The notes under the pieces were generated by a model that did not search any database, was not told the origin of the DNA, and was given only the letters and a program-made list of their open reading frames with translations. Positions 32,052 to 39,012 of a stretch of 39,012 nt of DNA are shown one piece after another. Within the stretch, counting starts at the first letter, position 1, and each line of letters starts with the position of its first letter. Both the position numbers and the translations under genes were made by a program. The stretch is from Pseudomonadota bacterium (GTDB taxonomy: Bacteria; Pseudomonadota; Gammaproteobacteria; Burkholderiales; JABEVD01): the NCBI GenBank assembly GCA_021848705.1, contig JAJZTT010000006.1:1-39012 (forward strand). The letters run 5' to 3'.

Positions 32052-33284
32052 ATGAAGCAAAAGATACTGGTTTCGATGTTGATTGCGGGAGGTTTTTTTG
32101 CATCTGCCGCACACGCGACGAACGGCTACTTCTCTCACGGCTACGGCATCAAGTCCGAAGGCATGGGCGGCGTCGGCATCGCGTTTCCCCAGGATTCGCT
32201 CGCCGCTGCGACCAATCCTGCGGGCATGGTGATGGTCGGCAACAGAATGGATCTGGGTCTGGAATGGTTCAAGCCTTCGAGGAGCGCACAGATCACCGGA
32301 AGTCCGGTTCCAGGCGCAAACGGGACTTACGATGCCAATGGCAAGACCAACTTCTTCATCCCCAGTTTCGGTTACAACAGGATGATTTCTCAGGATTCTT
32401 CCCTCGGCGTCTCGGTCTACGGCAACGGTGGCATGAACACCACCTATACCACCGCGAATCCGTTGCTCGGCACTTCTCCTGCGGTGATGGACCTCGAGCA
32501 ACTCTTCGTCGCGCCCACCTTTTCGAAGAAGGTCGACGACAAGAACTATTTCGGCATTTCGCTGAATCTCGCCTACCAGCGCTTCAAGGCGCAGGGCCTG
32601 GAAAACTTCACTGCAGTCAGCCAGACGCCAACGGGCGTCACCAACAACGGAACGGACACTTCGACGGGTTACGGATTGCATCTGGGCTGGATCCAGCAGG
32701 TGACCCCGGACGTCTCGGTCGGCGCCACCTACCAGACCAAGACCAAGATGACGAAGTTCTCCAAGTACAGCGGCCTCTTCGCCAATCAGGGGAGCTTCGA
32801 CATTCCGGCCACCTATGGCGCAGGAATCGCGGTGAAAGTTGCTCCTCCCACCACCGTGGCTTTCGACGTGCAGCGCATCATGTACAACGACGTCTCTTCC
32901 ATCGCGAATCCCAACCCGACCGGCCAGCTCGGTTCGGCCAATGGTACCGGATTCGGCTGGCAGAACATGACGGTCTACAAGCTCGGCGTGAACCATGAAT
33001 GGAACCAGAACCTGACGCTTCGCGCAGGCTGGGACCACAACAACGGTTCCATTCCGGCAAGCCAGACCTATTTCAACATCATCGCGCCCGCGACCGTGAC
33101 CGACCATCTGACCCTGGGCGGCACCTGGAAGCTTGCAGACAAGTCGGAAATCTCCTTCTACTACATGCATGCATTCAGGAAGACCATTTACGGAAACGGA
33201 TCCCTGGCCGGTGCAGGAGGAGGGGAATCGAACCTCACCTTGTCCGAAGACTCGCTCGGCATCTCCTACGGCTGGAATCTGTAA
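32052..33284 (+). CDS. FadL/OmpP1 family outer-membrane channel
   Basis: A 410-residue beta-barrel protein with a signal peptide (1-23, cleavage before TNGYF). The mature N terminus 'TNGYFSHGYGIKSEGMGGV' and 'DSLAAATNPAGMVMVGNRM' are the FadL hatch-region signature, and the last residues form a typical terminal strand ending in 'YGWNL'. FadL proteins pass hydrophobic molecules across the outer membrane. Here it follows tusA and dsrE2 at 35 bases in the same unit, so a role in uptake of elemental-sulfur-type or organic polysulfane molecules is attractive, though it has not been shown for this protein. A strong terminator follows. Confidence 0.9.
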   Translation: MKQKILVSMLIAGGFFASAAHATNGYFSHGYGIKSEGMGGVGIAFPQDSLAAATNPAGMVMVGNRMDLGLEWFKPSRSAQITGSPVPGANGTYDANGKTNFFIPSFGYNRMISQDSSLGVSVYGNGGMNTTYTTANPLLGTSPAVMDLEQLFVAPTFSKKVDDKNYFGISLNLAYQRFKAQGLENFTAVSQTPTGVTNNGTDTSTGYGLHLGWIQQVTPDVSVGATYQTKTKMTKFSKYSGLFANQGSFDIPATYGAGIAVKVAPPTTVAFDVQRIMYNDVSSIANPNPTGQLGSANGTGFGWQNMTVYKLGVNHEWNQNLTLRAGWDHNNGSIPASQTYFNIIAPATVTDHLTLGGTWKLADKSEISFYYMHAFRKTIYGNGSLAGAGGGESNLTLSEDSLGISYGWNL

Positions 33285-33297
33285 TTTTCCCCGGCAA

Positions 33298-33333
33298 GAC
33301 AGAAAAGCCCGGCCTCGGCCGGGCTTTTCTGTC
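33298..33333. terminator. Strong bidirectional hairpin terminator after fadL-like gene
   Basis: A perfect 17-base inverted repeat, GACAGAAAAGCCCGGCC / GGCCGGGCTTTTCTGTC, with only two bases between arms. The GC-rich core is flanked by A4 and T4, so it would work on both strands. It ends the tusA-dsrE2-fadL unit. Confidence 0.9.
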
Positions 33334-33389
33334 TTCAGTACGCCCTGTCTGCTAAACTTGTTCCAGATTTGGAATTTTTGGGAATTGGC

Positions 33390-34508
33390 ATGACTTATCT
33401 GCAGCGACTCGAAAAAATCATCGACGAAGTGATCGAGCCTTCCGCAACCGCAATCGATCGGGAGGGCATCTTTCCGAGGGCTGCGATTTCAGCGCTGGGC
33501 GAGGCGGGGCTCCTCGGGTTGATGAGCGATGTCGAAGTGGGAGGAATGGGGCTGGGACCGAACGAGGCGGCCGAAGTCGTCGAGCGCATCGGCAGGATCT
33601 GTTCTTCGACTGCACTCGTCCTGACCATGCACTACAGCGGAATCGAGGCTGTGGAAAAACACGCGGAAGCTTCGGTTCGGAGCGACATCGTCTCGGGTCG
33701 TCATCTGCTCACGCTTGCCTGGTCCGAAGTCGGATCGAGGTCTCATTTCTGGGTGCCGCTCGGCACTGCCAGGCGGGATGGGGAGGAATATGTCCTGGAC
33801 GGGGAAAAATCCATGGTGACTTCCGCCCTAGAAGCCGATTATTACGTCTGGTCCTCGAAGCCTGCGCAAGCTTCCGGCGCAAGCACCTTGTGGCTGGTGG
33901 GAAGCCGGATGGCGGGACTCAGTCAGCCGAAACTCTATGACGGGGTGGGGCTCAGGGGAAACTGTTCTGCACCGGTTTCATGCCGTTCCCTCAGGATTCC
34001 GGAATCTTCCATGCTGGGTCCGGATGGAGGCGGTTTCGACATCATGATCTGGGAAGTCCTGCCCGTTTATTGCGTGCTGCTGGCCTCCTGCATGGTGGGC
34101 ATCATGGATGCAGCGCTCTCGCATGCCTGCAGGCATGTCGCAAAGGGAAAATTCGTTCATACCGGAGGAACCATTTCCGAGCTTCCGACCATCCGTGCCT
34201 ATCTCGCCAAGGCCAGGGTGAGGGCAGACATGGCAAGGTCTTTGCGAAATGAGGCGCTGCTTGCGCTTTCCACGGAAAGGGAGGACGCCATGCTGCGAGT
34301 GATGGAAGCGAAGGCGGCCACAGCGGAAGCTGCGCTCGAAGTCACCGATGTCGCGATGCGGGTTTGCGGCGGGGCGGCATTCCGGAAGGATTCCGCCATC
34401 GAGCGTTATTTCCGGGATGCGAGGGCGGCTTCCATCATGGCGCCGACTTCCGACGTGCTCTTCGATTTCATCGGTCGGGCGATTTGCGACATGCCGATCT
34501 TCACATGA
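33390..34508 (+). CDS. Acyl-CoA dehydrogenase-like flavoprotein lacking the usual catalytic glutamate
   Basis: A 372-residue protein with the acyl-CoA dehydrogenase fold. It shows an N-terminal helical domain with 'LGEAGLLGLMSDVEVGGMGL', the middle beta domain with 'LDGEKSMVTSALEADYYVW', and the C-terminal helical domain ending 'RDARAASIMAPTSDVLFDFI'. In classical members the last region reads like 'YEGT' with the catalytic glutamate; here it reads 'MAPT'. The enzyme may therefore be a monooxygenase or other flavin-dependent relative (as in the DszC branch) rather than a true dehydrogenase. The ATG at 33390 is chosen over 33369 by family alignment. The 3' end overlaps the convergent TauD-like gene by eight bases. 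Confidence 0.8.
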   Translation: MTYLQRLEKIIDEVIEPSATAIDREGIFPRAAISALGEAGLLGLMSDVEVGGMGLGPNEAAEVVERIGRICSSTALVLTMHYSGIEAVEKHAEASVRSDIVSGRHLLTLAWSEVGSRSHFWVPLGTARRDGEEYVLDGEKSMVTSALEADYYVWSSKPAQASGASTLWLVGSRMAGLSQPKLYDGVGLRGNCSAPVSCRSLRIPESSMLGPDGGGFDIMIWEVLPVYCVLLASCMVGIMDAALSHACRHVAKGKFVHTGGTISELPTIRAYLAKARVRADMARSLRNEALLALSTEREDAMLRVMEAKAATAEAALEVTDVAMRVCGGAAFRKDSAIERYFRDARAASIMAPTSDVLFDFIGRAICDMPIFT

Positions 34509-35328
34509 TCCGGTCGTGGTATCTCGCCCGGTAGAGGAGGCGGGTATCGTCCGTGAAAGCGGAACGGTCGTGCAGCACGTTGTTGCAGAGCAGCCCCATT
34601 CCGGGCTCGAGTTTTGCATGAAAAATATGAGGGGAAGGGGAGGATAGGATGGACTCGATCGCTGCGACCGCAGCCTGGGTCGCCGCATCCTTTTTCCATG
34701 AAATCGAGCGGGTCCTCGCCGTGTAACGCATGTGCAGATGGCCCCCTTCGTCGAAGGAAAAAACAGGGCCGGTTTCTTCCGGTCGCGCAACGCCATCCTC
34801 ATCCGTTCTTTCCGGAATGGTCATGGCATCCATCATGGAAAGCGCCTGCACATGTTGCCGATCCAGATCCCGCAACAGGCAGTAAAGGATTTCATGGTCC
34901 ATCAGATGGTTTTCGCCGCCTTCTCTCGCGCTTCTCACGCAATGAAGCAGCATTGAACGAATCTTCCTTCCGGATGGATTGTAATACCCATCGGTGTGCC
35001 ATTTGATCGGCTTCATCGTGTAAGGAATATAGCCCTTTCCTTCTTCCCTCACTTCGATCCTTGAAATGCCGTCTTCCCCGGCCAGCCAGTTGGCGTCGAT
35101 TTTCTCGAGACCGAACTGGATTGCGATTTTCGAGACATCCGGGGCTGCGACATTGCCTTTGTAGATCGCCATGTTGGATTTCCTGATTCTGGAAAGCAGG
35201 GCATCCTTTTCGGATTGTGCGAGATTCTGCGGGTCCTTCACTTCGACGATGAGCTCTCCGACCGATTCAGGAGAAGATGCGAACTTCTCATCGCGAAAGC
35301 GCTGGTATTCTTCCTCGCTGAAATTCAT
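34501..35328 (-). CDS. TauD/TfdA-like Fe(II)/2-oxoglutarate dioxygenase
   Basis: A 275-residue double-stranded beta-helix oxygenase. The iron facial triad is visible: His111 and Asp113 in 'IKWHTDGYYNP' and His253 in 'CNNVLHDRSAF'. Arginines at 263 and 267 ('RLLYRARYHD') suit the binding of 2-oxoglutarate. TauD enzymes oxidise taurine, alkylsulfates or other substrates; the substrate here cannot be read. It is the last gene of the leftward sulfur operon and overlaps the upstream unknown gene by four bases (ATGA), so it is made with the TusA fusion and RspA proteins. Presence in a dissimilatory sulfur operon suggests an organosulfur or thiol substrate, by inference. Confidence 0.85.
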   Translation of the reverse strand: MNFSEEEYQRFRDEKFASSPESVGELIVEVKDPQNLAQSEKDALLSRIRKSNMAIYKGNVAAPDVSKIAIQFGLEKIDANWLAGEDGISRIEVREEGKGYIPYTMKPIKWHTDGYYNPSGRKIRSMLLHCVRSAREGGENHLMDHEILYCLLRDLDRQHVQALSMMDAMTIPERTDEDGVARPEETGPVFSFDEGGHLHMRYTARTRSISWKKDAATQAAVAAIESILSSPSPHIFHAKLEPGMGLLCNNVLHDRSAFTDDTRLLYRARYHDRIM

Positions 35329-35915
35329 TCGATTCCCGATCCAAGACGGTTCTGCATCGGGCTCTCGTCGAAAAGCCCTTTCATGGCGCGGGAGATGGTT
35401 GCGACCGCTTCTGGCGCCTCGATCTGGGTCGCCTGGTCGATGAGCCAGCTTTTGTCCCGCTCGTCAGCATGTTCCAGCATGGCATGTCCGAGATAACGCA
35501 AGAAGGAAAAATCAGGTCCTTCCCCGGTGAAACCGCATTCGGCGTAGATGGATGACCGCTTGTTCAGCAGATCGATGAAGCTGCGCCTGCAATCGGCAAA
35601 CGGCTTGCCCAAAAGAGCGTTTTCGTTCTCCGAAAAATTGTCCGCGACACGCAGCGCAAGCTCGGTGGTGAAAGCCGACCTTTCCTCCTCGATCAGCATT
35701 TCGTAAGCGATCCTGTCCGTTACCTGGATCTCGAAGATCAGCATCTCGGCAAGATAATCAAAATACTGCGGGCCGACCTGGATTTCGAAATCGGCCCGCC
35801 GCATGCTTTTGACCGCATTCTGGGCGAGCTTCCAGAGGATGAAGGCCATCGCCCCTGCGATTTCCTGCGGGGACTTCTCGCGCTCCTTCCGGAACCAGCG
35901 GCTTTTGACCCTCAT
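35325..35915 (-). CDS. Unknown helical protein in sulfur operon
   Basis: A 196-residue soluble protein, apparently all-helical. Two cysteines lie near each other around residues 109 and 127 ('FADCRRSFID', 'IYAECGFTGEGPDFSF'). The N terminus is basic (MRVKSRWFRKEREKSPQEI) and the middle is rich in acidic and aromatic residues. There is no signal peptide and no membrane segment. I do not recognise any family. It starts at the stop of the TusA tandem gene (TGATG) and its own stop overlaps the start of the TauD-like gene, so it is firmly inside this operon. It may be a structural partner of the dioxygenase. Confidence 0.75.
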   Translation of the reverse strand: MRVKSRWFRKEREKSPQEIAGAMAFILWKLAQNAVKSMRRADFEIQVGPQYFDYLAEMLIFEIQVTDRIAYEMLIEEERSAFTTELALRVADNFSENENALLGKPFADCRRSFIDLLNKRSSIYAECGFTGEGPDFSFLRYLGHAMLEHADERDKSWLIDQATQIEAPEAVATISRAMKGLFDESPMQNRLGSGIE

Positions 35916-36394
35916 CAGCCTTTCCGGATGTAGAAGTCGTATTCACCCGGAGCGAATTCGACCGTCTTCAGGATGGTCATTCCGGTGGCATGAGCCCATC
36001 CGGGGATGTCGGAACTGATTCCAGGGCAGTTGCTGGTGAGCTTCAGCACTTCTCCCTGCTGCATGCCGTTCAGCAGCTTCTTCGCTTCAACGATGGGACC
36101 GGGGCAGAGTACGCCGCGGATGTCGAGCGATGCATTCACCTGCATCTCTTCGGTCTTGCCCTTCTGGATGTAATAGCCCGTACCTCCTCCCGGCATCTTT
36201 TCGGTATGCAGCACCTGATTCGAAGTCTGCTTCGCCCAGGAAAAAAGGTCGTCCTGGGTTCCGGGGCAATCGGAAATGAGAAGCAGCACCTGGCCGGATT
36301 CGAGGTCGTTGACCATTCTTTTGGCGCCCACCAGCGGGCCAGGGCAGGAAAGACCCTTCATGTCGAGAATGATGTTGGCTGTGTATTGGCTCAT
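35915..36394 (-). CDS. Tandem TusA-like protein (two SirA domains fused)
   Basis: A 159-residue protein made of two TusA-type domains with an exact 80-residue repeat. Cys17 and Cys97 sit in matching 'GLSCPGPLV' and 'GVLCPGPIV' motifs, and Cys43 and Cys123 in matching 'SDCPG' and 'SNCPG' motifs. All four cysteines are kept in both halves, so both should be able to carry persulfide sulfur. Ordinary TusA proteins have one domain of 75-80 residues. The ATG has AGGAG six bases upstream. It follows the RspA gene at nine bases. Possibly it passes sulfur intramolecularly or binds two partners at once; no function is established. Confidence 0.9.
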   Translation of the reverse strand: MSQYTANIILDMKGLSCPGPLVGAKRMVNDLESGQVLLLISDCPGTQDDLFSWAKQTSNQVLHTEKMPGGGTGYYIQKGKTEEMQVNASLDIRGVLCPGPIVEAKKLLNGMQQGEVLKLTSNCPGISSDIPGWAHATGMTILKTVEFAPGEYDFYIRKG

Positions 36395-36403
36395 TGCGCT
36401 CTC

Positions 36404-36733
36404 CTAGTATCCGCCCTTGCCATAGGGCTGCGGAAGCCCTGCGATTTTCGCGCCCTGCTTGGCGGGGCCCATCGGAAAAAGATCGTAGAGCGTCTTGCTG
36501 TCCGCTTCTTCCCAGAATTCCTGAACCCCTTTCAGCATGTTGCGGAAGTTCGGGGTATGTCCGTTTTCCCGGTATTCGTTGCGCATGTATTCGACGATCT
36601 TCCAGTGCTCCGGGGTGAGTGCGATGCCTTCGGCTGCTGCGATCACTTCGACCGCCTCGTTGCTGAAATCCGGCTCCAGCAGGTAGCCGTCTTCGTCGGT
36701 TTCCACTTCTGCCCCATTGATGAAGTATGTCAT
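36404..36733 (-). CDS. rspA: DsrC/TusE-family protein without C-terminal cysteines (RspA type)
   Basis: A 109-residue DsrC homologue. The body is a normal DsrC fold ('DEDGYLLEPDFSNEAVEVIA', 'GIALTPEHWKIVEYMRNEY', 'LYDLFPMGPAKQGAKIAGLP'). Both functional cysteines of the flexible C-terminal arm are missing: the family ending G-A-C-K-I-A-G-L-P-x-P-T-G-C-V is here Q-G-A-K-I-A-G-L-P-Q-P-Y-G-K-G-G-Y. There is no cysteine in the protein at all. It cannot form the DsrC trisulfide and cannot be a sulfur substrate of rDsrAB. DsrC homologues without these cysteines have been named RspA and thought to be regulatory. GGAGG precedes the ATG at six bases. Confidence 0.88.
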   Translation of the reverse strand: MTYFINGAEVETDEDGYLLEPDFSNEAVEVIAAAEGIALTPEHWKIVEYMRNEYRENGHTPNFRNMLKGVQEFWEEADSKTLYDLFPMGPAKQGAKIAGLPQPYGKGGY

Positions 36734-36757: not shown

Positions 36758-37333
36758 TCAATCTTCCAGGCCGGCGATGGTCTTGTGCGGTACGAAAATT
36801 CCGCAGCCGAACCGGCGCATTTTTCCGAGCCCTGCATGCTGCAGCCTGATCGAATGCCCGGGCTTCAGGTCATGGGTGACCAGACTGTATCCGGAGAGGG
36901 TGCCTTCCCCGGTGTCCACCTCCTGGCGCATGCCGCAGATCAGCCTGCATTGGATGCCGAGAGAACTGATTTCCTGCATGGATTCTGCCAGGAAGGAAAT
37001 CTCGTCGATTTCGCTTGCGACGAAGTGGGCATGCAGCGTGGGATACGCTGCGATCTCCCTGATCCTGCCTTCGCCGAGCTGGAATGGATTTCCTCCGACA
37101 TCGAGCAGGCTTCCTGCCAGATGGAGCGCATCCTCTGCGCGATGGTCAGGAATCCTCAGGGTGAGTTTTGCACGCCTCGGTAGGAACTGCCCCCCCCTCA
37201 GCGGCAAAATTCCGGCCGAATTTTCCTGCCCGATCCAGGGCAGCACGCGAACCACTTCGCGCCAGAGAAGCGCGGCATGCGCCGCGGGCAGGAAACCGGC
37301 CCGGATGTCGAAAACCGTATCAATCATGTCCAT
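36758..37333 (-). CDS. Cas6/Cmx6-like putative RNA endonuclease homologue
   Basis: A 191-residue protein that matches, from memory, the type I-MYXAN Cas6/Cmx6 family along its full length: 'TVFDIRAGFLPAAHAALLW' at the start, 'LPWIGQENSAGILPLRG' (31-47), 'RRAKLTLRIPDHRAEDAL' (53-70), 'GIQCRLICGMRQ' (126-137) and the C-terminal glycine-rich 'GLGKMRRFGCGIFVPHK' (168-184). Cas6 proteins cut CRISPR precursor RNA. Here there is no array, no other cas gene, and the gene sits inside a sulfur operon between a 72-residue protein (14-base overlap) and rspA (24-base gap). His101 and His103 in 'PTLHAHFVA' are candidate catalytic residues. A role in RNA processing of the operon is possible but unproven. 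An ATG at 37327 is an alternative start. Confidence 0.75.
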   Translation of the reverse strand: MDMIDTVFDIRAGFLPAAHAALLWREVVRVLPWIGQENSAGILPLRGGQFLPRRAKLTLRIPDHRAEDALHLAGSLLDVGGNPFQLGEGRIREIAAYPTLHAHFVASEIDEISFLAESMQEISSLGIQCRLICGMRQEVDTGEGTLSGYSLVTHDLKPGHSIRLQHAGLGKMRRFGCGIFVPHKTIAGLED

Positions 37334-37538
37334 CGGTAGAATTCGCCCATCCGTCCATGGCTTCTGCCCATTTTTTCGCCGTCACCGGATCGATGTCGAA
37401 AATGGTGAAGCGCTTTCCTTCGCGGATCCGGATCCTCAGCATGCTCATGCCTCCTTCTGCATGTTCGATCTGCTGCAGTTCGATTTCCTGCCCGCCGAGC
37501 GGTACCCTGAATTTGTCGATCTCCCTGATCTGCGACAT
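37320..37538 (-). CDS. Small conserved-looking protein, first gene of the leftward sulfur operon
   Basis: A 72-residue protein without cysteine: 'FRVPLGGQEIELQQIEHAEG' then 'MLRIRIREGKRFTIFDIDPV' and a helical end 'AKKWAEAMDGWANST'. It looks like a short antiparallel beta sheet capped by a helix. The frame is open to 37595, but the ATG at 37538 has GGGAG seven bases upstream. Its stop lies inside the start of the Cas6-like gene (14-base overlap). It may belong to a DUF found in sulfur oxidisers, but I cannot name it with confidence and assign no function. The tight coupling suggests it works with the Cas6-like protein. Confidence 0.72.
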   Translation of the reverse strand: MSQIREIDKFRVPLGGQEIELQQIEHAEGGMSMLRIRIREGKRFTIFDIDPVTAKKWAEAMDGWANSTDGHD

Positions 37539-37603
37539 GAAGACGCTCCCTGTTCGAGTTCCCTCCGCACGAAATGCCGGGAAACTGCTATACAAATAAT
37601 AAG

Positions 37604-37664
37604 CGATATTGAGCGCGACACAAGGTATCAGCGTCTATAGCCAATACGGGGGGGGGTGTATAAC
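37604..37664 (-). promoter_or_regulatory. Composite sulfur-gene promoter element, copy 3 (leftward operon / dsrA)
   Basis: On the minus strand: GTTATA (37664-37659), a C-rich run in place of CATCCCCC, GGCTATAGAC (37642-37633), 13 bases, then GTCGCGCTCAATATCG (37619-37604), which keeps 11 of 16 bases of copy 1. Block-to-block distances equal those of copy 1. It points to the leftward operon, but because dsrA diverges from here the same bound protein could serve both. A run of nine G on the plus strand (37648-37656) is part of it. Confidence 0.55.
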
Positions 37665-37676
37665 CCTGACGGGTAG

Positions 37677-37707
37677 TTTACATGTCACTATCAGGCTTGT
37701 CTAATAT
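37677..37707 (+). promoter_or_regulatory. Possible dsrA promoter
   Basis: TTTACA at 37677-37682 and TAATAT at 37702-37707, with a 19-base spacing that is longer than ideal. The same TAATAT is used at soeA. The predicted start is about 85 bases before dsrA, leaving a leader without recognised structure. Confidence 0.35.
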
Positions 37708-37799
37708 ACCTAGATGGCGGAGCGTCTCATTCAACGGGCGGCCAAGATCGCCGATGGTTCGCAGGGACCTTGATCAAATAACTTCAATGTGGAGGATTC

Positions 37800-39012
37800 A
37801 TGGCTAAGAAATTGCATGATACACCGAATCTCGACGAGCTCGAGAACGGCCCGTGGCCCAGTTTCGTGACTGGTCTCAAGCGTCTTGCCCAGGACAACGA
37901 CATGGCTGTAGATCTTCTCGGGCAACTCGAAACTTCCTACAAGACCAAGAAGGGATACTGGAAGGGCGGTACGGTCGGCGTGTTCGGCTACGGAGGCGGG
38001 GTCATTCCGCGCTTTACGGAGCTCAAGGATGAGAACGGCGAACCGGTCTACAAGGATGCAGCCGAATTTCATACGCTGCGCGTCCAGCCTCCTGCAGGCA
38101 TGCATTACACCACCGAAGTGCTTCGCAAGATGACCGACATCTGGGAGAAGCACGGCTCCGGCCTGATCGCCTTCCACGGCCAGTCCGGCGACATCATGTT
38201 CCAGGGCGCGACCACCGACAATGTCCAGGCGGCCTTTGACGAAATCAACGAAATGGGATTCGATCTCGGCGGTGCGGGCCCCGCAGTTCGCACCTCGATG
38301 TCCTGCGTCGGTTCCGCCCGTTGCGAGCAATCCTGTTACGACGAAGCCCGCGCACACCGTCTGGTCCTCAACACCTTCGTGGACGACATCCACCGCCCCT
38401 CGCTCCCCTACAAGTTCAAGTTCAAGTTCTCCGGCTGCCCCAACGACTGCATGAATTCCATCCAGCGCGCGGACATGGCGGTGATCGGCACCTGGCGCGA
38501 CAACATTCGCACCGACGAGGCGCTTGCCAGGAAATGGTTCGAGAAGCACGGCATGAACGAGCTCGTGAACGATATCGTCGCCCGTTGCCCGACCAAGGCA
38601 TTCCAGTTGAAGGAAGTGAAGGACGTGAAGAGCGGCGACCACATTTCCAGCGTCGCGGTGAGCGACAATCATGCCGTCGAGATCGACAATCACGACTGCG
38701 TTCGCTGCATGCACTGCATCAACGTCATGACCGGTGCGCTTTCCCCTGGCAAGGACAAGGGCGCGACCATCCTGGTGGGCGGCAAGCGCACCCTCAAGAT
38801 CGGCGACCTGATGGGCACCGTGGTGATTCCCTTCATGAAGCTCGATACCGACGAGGCGATGGATCAACTCGTCGACCTCGCGCAGCGCATCATCGACTTC
38901 TTTGCCGAAAACGCGCTGGAGCACGAGCGCACCGGCGAAATGATCGAGCGCATCGGTCTCGTCAATTTCCTCGAAGCGCTGGACATCGATGTGGATCCGA
39001 ACATGGAGATCG
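37800..39012 (+). CDS. dsrA: Dissimilatory sulfite reductase subunit alpha, reverse-type (3' end outside window)
   Basis: The first 404 residues of DsrA; the frame runs off the right edge. In sulfur oxidisers DsrAB works in reverse, oxidising DsrC-bound sulfur to sulfite. The siroheme-[4Fe-4S] ligands are complete: Cys169 and Cys175 in 'SMSCVGSARCEQSC' and Cys213 and Cys217 in 'FSGCPNDCMNS'. The inserted ferredoxin domain follows with 'NHDCVRCMHCINVMTGAL' near residue 300. GGAGG precedes the ATG by four bases. The oxidative type is inferred from the surroundings (Sat-AprBA, SoeABC, TusA, DsrE2) because no dsrEFH or dsrD is in view. dsrB and the rest of the cluster are expected downstream. Confidence 0.97.
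   Translation, partial: MAKKLHDTPNLDELENGPWPSFVTGLKRLAQDNDMAVDLLGQLETSYKTKKGYWKGGTVGVFGYGGGVIPRFTELKDENGEPVYKDAAEFHTLRVQPPAGMHYTTEVLRKMTDIWEKHGSGLIAFHGQSGDIMFQGATTDNVQAAFDEINEMGFDLGGAGPAVRTSMSCVGSARCEQSCYDEARAHRLVLNTFVDDIHRPSLPYKFKFKFSGCPNDCMNSIQRADMAVIGTWRDNIRTDEALARKWFEKHGMNELVNDIVARCPTKAFQLKEVKDVKSGDHISSVAVSDNHAVEIDNHDCVRCMHCINVMTGALSPGKDKGATILVGGKRTLKIGDLMGTVVIPFMKLDTDEAMDQLVDLAQRIIDFFAENALEHERTGEMIERIGLVNFLEALDIDVDPNMEI

Follow-up and report, generated by a model that had tools for sequence, protein, structure and literature searches.

The DNA analysed here, a stretch of 39,012 nucleotides (hereafter the window), carries a gene for a protein of the Cas6 family among genes of dissimilatory sulfur metabolism. 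Cas6 proteins are otherwise CRISPR proteins, and the locus raises the question whether this one still serves a CRISPR-Cas system or has been taken over by the sulfur genes around it and, if so, what it does there.

The gene (positions 36758-37333, minus strand) is open from an ATG and encodes 191 amino acids. The product matched TIGR02807 with 121 bits (curated cut-off 98.85) over residues 1 to 182 and PF09559 with 164 bits (curated cut-off 26.7) from end to end; four Cas6 models of PADLOC matched it at E <= 1e-34, the best at 1.5e-48, and the glycine-rich motif GLGKMRRFGCGIF was found near its C-terminus. An AlphaFold2 model from a 39-sequence alignment (pLDDT 93.6, pTM 0.88) gave the predicted protein a tandem ferredoxin-like (RAMP) fold with the glycine-rich loop. 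The top structure in Foldseek was 8fcu_B (E 1.4e-15, TM 0.88), with which the model was compared using VIA (Z 23.6, 185 residues, rmsd 2.0 A, 25% identity), followed by Pyrococcus Cas6 proteins and Cas6e; a profile search against PDB sequences yielded 8fcj_B at E 5e-25. A second, divergent member, from locus L093, was modelled as well and matched the same subunit, Cas6 of a type I-B CRISPR-associated transposon, at Z 25.3. The Pyrococcus furiosus proteins (3i4h, 3pkm) and the Cas6-related 3ufc, which come from a CRISPR context, have the tandem ferredoxin-like fold in common with the window protein (Z 13.7-15.2) at about 10% identity. By profile and by fold the 191-residue product is a true member of the Cas6 family. 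The earlier note had likened it to Cas6/Cmx6 over its whole length, the C-terminal glycine-rich motif included, and had named a TIGR02807 search and a structure comparison as checks on this; both bear the likeness out. It is the sole TIGR02807 match in the 2.8-Mb assembly (completeness 89%), in which no type I-MYXAN Cas5 was found either; the refuting case of the same note, an intact type I-MYXAN locus elsewhere in the genome whose Cas6 the gene would merely duplicate, was thus not encountered in this assembly. Compared with its near relative in locus L002 the window protein is 84% identical (dN 0.088, dS 0.313, ratio 0.28), and the gene is therefore kept by selection.

The Cas6 gene is the second of its operon, on the minus strand. 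The first encodes a 72-residue DUF6967 protein (37320..37538; PF22295, 111 bits) and overlaps the start of cas6 by 14 nt, an overlap that the earlier note had seen correctly, although the gene it called unknown belongs to a described family. Downstream of cas6 follow an rspA-like gene of the DsrC family, assigned by profile match, that lacks cysteine and ends in the tail PYGKGGY (36404..36733), a tandem double TusA of 159 residues (35915..36394; PF01206 twice), a conserved protein of 196 residues (35325..35915) and a TauD/TfdA-like 2OG-Fe(II) dioxygenase (34501..35328; PF02668). The cysteine-less DsrC homologue and the TusA fusion thus lie on the same strand behind cas6, as had been described. 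The tauD-like gene is downstream of cas6 in the window but upstream of it in most other loci. The 196-residue protein has no Pfam hit; its family (c12) has members in 18 of the 42 dsr neighbourhoods and is a recurrent one in those of Gammaproteobacteria. On the plus strand, diverging from DUF6967 across an intergenic or promoter region without Rfam match (37539..37799), lies a dsrA of the rDsr type (37800..39012; TIGR02064, 492 bits), which is cut by the contig end; in L002 the series continues as dsrA-B-E-F-H-C-M-K. The Cas6 gene therefore sits in an operon divergent from dsrABEFHCMKL and outside that transcript itself, so that the description of a gene embedded in a sulfur operon holds for the company it keeps and fails for the dsr transcript. 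Elsewhere in the window, a perfect 19-nt inverted repeat with a 2-nt loop (33296-33335), in the interval between a 410-residue reading frame (32052-33284) and an acyl-CoA dehydrogenase gene, is probably a terminator.

Regarding the distribution of the family, 274 evenly drawn genomes of Gammaproteobacteria were searched, with dsrA called at E below 1e-30. PF09559 was found in 91 genomes and dsrA in 94; both occurred in 87, PF09559 only in 4, dsrA only in 7 and neither in 176 (Fisher p 2e-57, from genome counts that ignore phylogeny in a draw covering 222 genera). The dsr-Cas6 clade is thus almost confined, within the class, to genomes with dsrA. In 65 of the 91 the Cas6 gene shares a contig with dsrA and is at most 6 kb from it, and in several others (e.g., G057, G109 and G240) it lies away from the dsr locus yet dsrA is present elsewhere in the genome; the link is therefore one of gene content and not of adjacency alone. 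At least one of the seven genomes with dsrA only reflects a contig break (locus L103 ends at x64, the small gene that usually holds the place of DUF6967), and the true overlap therefore probably exceeds the counted one. A locus with Cas6 and without dsrA (L063) likewise reaches its contig end just past tauD. In a draw of 299 genomes from the whole phylum, dsrA was present in 52 and PF09559 in only 4, all of them Burkholderiales and the window's own genome among them. Beside second dsrAB copies (L109-L112) neither dsrEFH nor Cas6 was seen, and the link is therefore to the oxidative cluster of the EFH type.

The same genomes were used to look for a CRISPR-Cas context. No CRISPR-like array was found in the 39,012-nt window, and none of the mapped dsr loci contained cas3, cas8/cmx8, cas7/devR, cas5/devS or adaptation genes, in line with the absence of an array or other cas gene that the earlier note had reported for the 39 kb. 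TIGR02586, the model of the type I-MYXAN Cas5, found nothing above its cut-off in any of the 274 genomes (0/274), and a Cas1 search of the window's genome (89% complete) gave no match. Repeat arrays beside Cas6 were absent from 49 loci (948 kb), 47 of them being free of such repeats and two having short triple repeats far from Cas6; arrays were detected by the same scan in two of the control loci. The protein could be an orphan that serves, or recently served, an array elsewhere in the genome: it scores above the I-MYXAN Cas6 model, and a Cas1 of one type or another is matched in 42 of the 91 genomes with Cas6. A Cas1 match is, however, also present in 62 of the 183 Cas6-negative genomes, which is no significant association (p 0.06) beside the near-perfect one with dsrA, and together with the missing Cas5, the missing Cas1 match in the window's genome and the missing arrays this leaves the orphan reading largely refuted and very improbable. 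The dsr-Cas6 is not part of a CRISPR-Cas system, and its being a repurposed Cas6, as had been suggested, is supported both by the lack of a CRISPR-Cas partner and by its conserved pairing with sulfur genes.

That pairing was followed over 39 mapped Cas6 loci, the neighbourhood survey for which the earlier note had called. In 32/39 loci dsrA or dsrB lies divergently within 5 kb upstream of cas6, rspA directly follows cas6 in 31/39, x64 or DUF6967 precedes it in 28/39 and tauD is upstream in 26/39; cas6 often follows the small gene, or c18, after 1-20 nt or overlaps it. The conserved operon is tauD - x64/DUF6967 - [c18] - cas6 - Cys-less DsrC. It mostly diverges from dsrAB, and its repeated occurrence throughout the class puts it well outside what chance would give. 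By conserved linkage to dsrAB and co-occurrence with it, the gene is a member of the gammaproteobacterial reverse-Dsr gene cluster. The partner rspA belongs to the RspA/DsrC family of reverse-Dsr oxidizers and is a DsrC homologue that lacks the redox cysteines: a C-terminal cysteine is present in one of the 31 DsrC-family proteins encoded next to Cas6, vs 30 of 31 other DsrC proteins, and the partners shown end in ...KGGY. Regarding the gene upstream, the pair of Cas6 with the 72-residue protein is real, but DUF6967 is not the general partner, x64 having that place in most Gammaproteobacteria. The idea that x64 is a divergent copy of DUF6967 is not supported: L041 has both genes next to each other, and sequence searches with x64 recover x64 alone. 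Among further conserved genes, c18 encodes a protein of about 235 residues between x64 and Cas6 in L068 (8929-9633) and eight other loci, with only a sub-threshold TPR hit in Pfam, and downstream of rspA many dsr loci (e.g., L053:4600-9192) contain two 2OG-Fe(II) oxygenases, one of them PKHD-type, DUF6866 and small families of 64-114 residues.

In L093, DUF6967 and Cas6 domains are fused in frame in a single reading frame of 295 residues, a natural fusion that speaks for joint action of the two proteins. In the L093 model, the DUF6967 domain resembled repeat III of Pur-alpha (5fgo; Z 7.9, 63 residues, 2.2 A), a weak lead at a level also reached by unrelated folds, and DUF6967 searched against PDB sequences gave chance matches to repeat proteins only. 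In four dsr loci from outside the Gammaproteobacteria, tauD together with x64 and/or DUF6967 is divergent from dsrA, and Cas6 is in none of them; the next gene in three of the four is a CysG-like siroheme synthase, judged by eye from the sequence and not by profile (L123:5717-7168, L124:5996-7441, L125:6263-7720). The small genes x64 and DUF6967 are unrecognised dsr companions in their own right, and the distribution suggests that the module is older and that Cas6 and rspA were added to it in the Gammaproteobacteria. In three genomes DUF6967 was also seen at sites apart from dsr and Cas6 (L060:9971-10144, L061:9809-9991, L062:10002-10148).

How far the protein has moved from its CRISPR relatives was judged against cyanobacterial I-MYXAN Cas6/Cmx6 proteins (L080-L086), which are of the same family (TIGR02807 161-255 bits in the three scanned) and 24-28% identical to the window protein. 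Six of these seven plasmid-borne relatives are encoded beside cas3, cas8/cmx8, cas7, cas5 or cas1, the exception being L083. In a maximum-likelihood tree, 48 dsr sequences form a single clade apart from these seven (support 100/99); the outgroup consists of the seven cyanobacterial sequences only, and the direction of descent therefore rests on Cas6 being otherwise a CRISPR protein. Positions in the conservation and charge alignments count from Met3 of the window protein, so that 2 has to be added to them. Common to both clades are H19 (47/48 dsr and 7/7 CRISPR-clade sequences), R60, L72 and the glycine-rich loop G168-G178. The Cas6 of the type I-B transposon Cascade (8fcj/8fcu chain B), which has the same fold over its full length (Z 23.6), shares the glycine-rich C-terminal loop and the histidine of the GIHxI loop that most dsr-Cas6 have, but carries Asn in place of H19 in 8fcj and, unlike dsr-Cas6, is a subunit of a CRISPR effector complex with no sulfur genes around. 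Active sites of Cas6 proteins vary, and the histidine is absent in one of them (PMC4041471).

Confined to the dsr clade are R54 (48/48), E111 (48/48) and K184 (47/48), as well as an insert with the motif GIHxIHxAESGNGW that most members have and the window's own lineage lacks. At window positions 108, 120, 136 and 172, all or nearly all of the seven CRISPR-clade proteins have a basic residue that most dsr-clade members have lost; the window protein retains R136. The median pI is 6.1 in the dsr clade vs 9.3-9.6 in the strongly basic CRISPR relatives, and the median net charge of the common core is about -0.5 vs +6 to +13 (Mann-Whitney p 2e-4, uncorrected for relatedness). With a pI of 6.5 and a net charge of -2 the window protein, like its clade, does not have the basic RNA-binding character of a CRISPR-type Cas6. 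These changes would fit a protein scaffold that works without RNA, in which the Cas6 fold would be an adaptor holding RspA, DUF6967/x64 or Dsr proteins together, for instance in sulfane-sulfur transfer or in assembly of the Dsr machinery. Such a role would also suit the invariant, dsr-specific R54 and E111, the mostly conserved GNGW insert and the constant company of a Cys-less DsrC; it would not obviously need the glycine-rich loop and H19, which are near-invariant after long divergence. The scaffold is accordingly rated unlikely, and because of the loss of charge it ranks close behind the regulatory binder preferred below.

The earlier note had proposed processing of the operon's own mRNA or of a small RNA. 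This is unsupported so far: no shared RNA element was found in the gaps covered, the basic character and several basic residues common to all seven CRISPR-clade relatives are lost in the clade, and the window copy is without the GIHxIHxAESGNGW segment of most of its dsr relatives. No conserved hairpin was common to the cas6-rspA gaps of the loci examined, and Rfam gave no match at E <= 1 between 34 and 39 kb of the window. Structure was found in the dsr transcript, where nearly every gammaproteobacterial dsr cluster examined has a strong stem-loop immediately after dsrC, and often another in the dsrA-dsrB gap, with a conserved position and no conserved sequence (L053, L064, L071, L048 and others). 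The dsrC-dsrM gap folds better than shuffled sequence with a median z of -3.0 (21 loci) and the dsrA-dsrB gap with -2.4 (25 loci). Pairs compared by eye share no sequence, even within one genome, and a dsrC-dsrM hairpin is also present in L101, from a genome in which no Cas6 gene was found. As a Cas6 target the hairpins were set aside, being strong but neither conserved in sequence nor tied to Cas6; they look like terminators or stabilisers and are leads, not evidence. An active endoribonuclease that cuts them and so sets the ratios of Dsr proteins would fit the strength of these hairpins as well as the Cas6 fold and H19 that have been kept, and one Cas6 of Sulfolobus cuts a non-CRISPR RNA (PMC4041471). 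Against this stand the features of the hairpins just given, the lost basic character and the segment missing from the window copy, and cutting of this kind is considered improbable, more so than the scaffold. The Sulfolobus solfataricus protein, Cas6-3, acts on ncRNA60 (PMC4041471) and is a precedent for a non-CRISPR target, yet it is still a CRISPR Cas6 and not a dedicated metabolic gene.

The dsr-Cas6 probably has a new job in sulfur metabolism. The reading preferred here, tentatively and short of calling it probable, is that of an exapted Cas6 acting as a regulatory binder dedicated to dsr, most likely of RNA, with DUF6967/x64 and RspA. Gammaproteobacterial sulfur oxidizers would have recruited a Cas6 like that of type I-B/I-MYXAN systems once, into an older dsr module of tauD, x64 and DUF6967; with its fold and glycine-rich loop, and in company with DUF6967/x64 and RspA, the protein would bind one particular dsr-regulon RNA and tune dsr expression rather than make crRNA. 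The homology and fold, the tie to dsr, the conserved operon, the fusion in L093 and the lack of a CRISPR-Cas context are shown; binding, cutting and regulation are inferred. For binding of nucleic acid speak the retention of H19 in 47/48 dsr and all seven CRISPR-clade sequences and of the glycine-rich loop and, weakly, the likeness of DUF6967 to Pur-alpha; against binding of RNA speak the loss of charge and of the four basic positions and, for the gaps and the window segment covered, the lack of a conserved RNA element and of an Rfam match. Somewhat more speculative is the extension by which the domesticated Cas6, DUF6967/x64 and the redox-dead DsrC would form a ribonucleoprotein sensor-regulator of reverse sulfite reduction.

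A Cas6-family protein without an attached CRISPR system is a standard companion of dsr across the Gammaproteobacteria. In openly licensed literature (full text), nothing was found that links Cas6 to dsr and nothing relevant on Cmx6/TIGR02807/PF09559 or DUF6967; the co-mentions of Cas6 and dsr that were examined concerned ordinary CRISPR or the absence of cas6, and neither Cas6 nor CRISPR is mentioned in a 2024 study of how Dsr-mediated oxidation evolved (PMC11406059). Judged from that literature, Cas6 in dsr loci is likely to be novel. The label 'type I-MYXAN CRISPR-associated protein Cas6/Cmx6' would fall on a gene in 91/274 of the sampled Gammaproteobacteria (about one third), and in almost every case examined the labelled gene is a fixed rDsr companion and not CRISPR; CRISPR surveys relying on Cas6 counts alone would be led astray. 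Should the protein be required, then a component that descends from CRISPR has gone unrecognised in rDsr sulfur oxidation despite decades of study; if the sensor-regulator reading is true, a Cas protein would have a role in energy metabolism that is unrelated to CRISPR. With so strict an association and so small an operon, the role of the protein can be addressed directly by deleting genes in model sulfur oxidizers.

A minor observation concerns the exception among the cyanobacterial loci. On a plasmid of Gloeobacter morelensis (NZ_CP063846.1; L083:4974-8237) a Cas6 matching TIGR02807 at 161 bits, near which no further cas gene is listed, stands in a gene run that includes a protein of the PAPS-reductase family and a cupin protein; this is possibly another non-CRISPR use of the TIGR02807 family.
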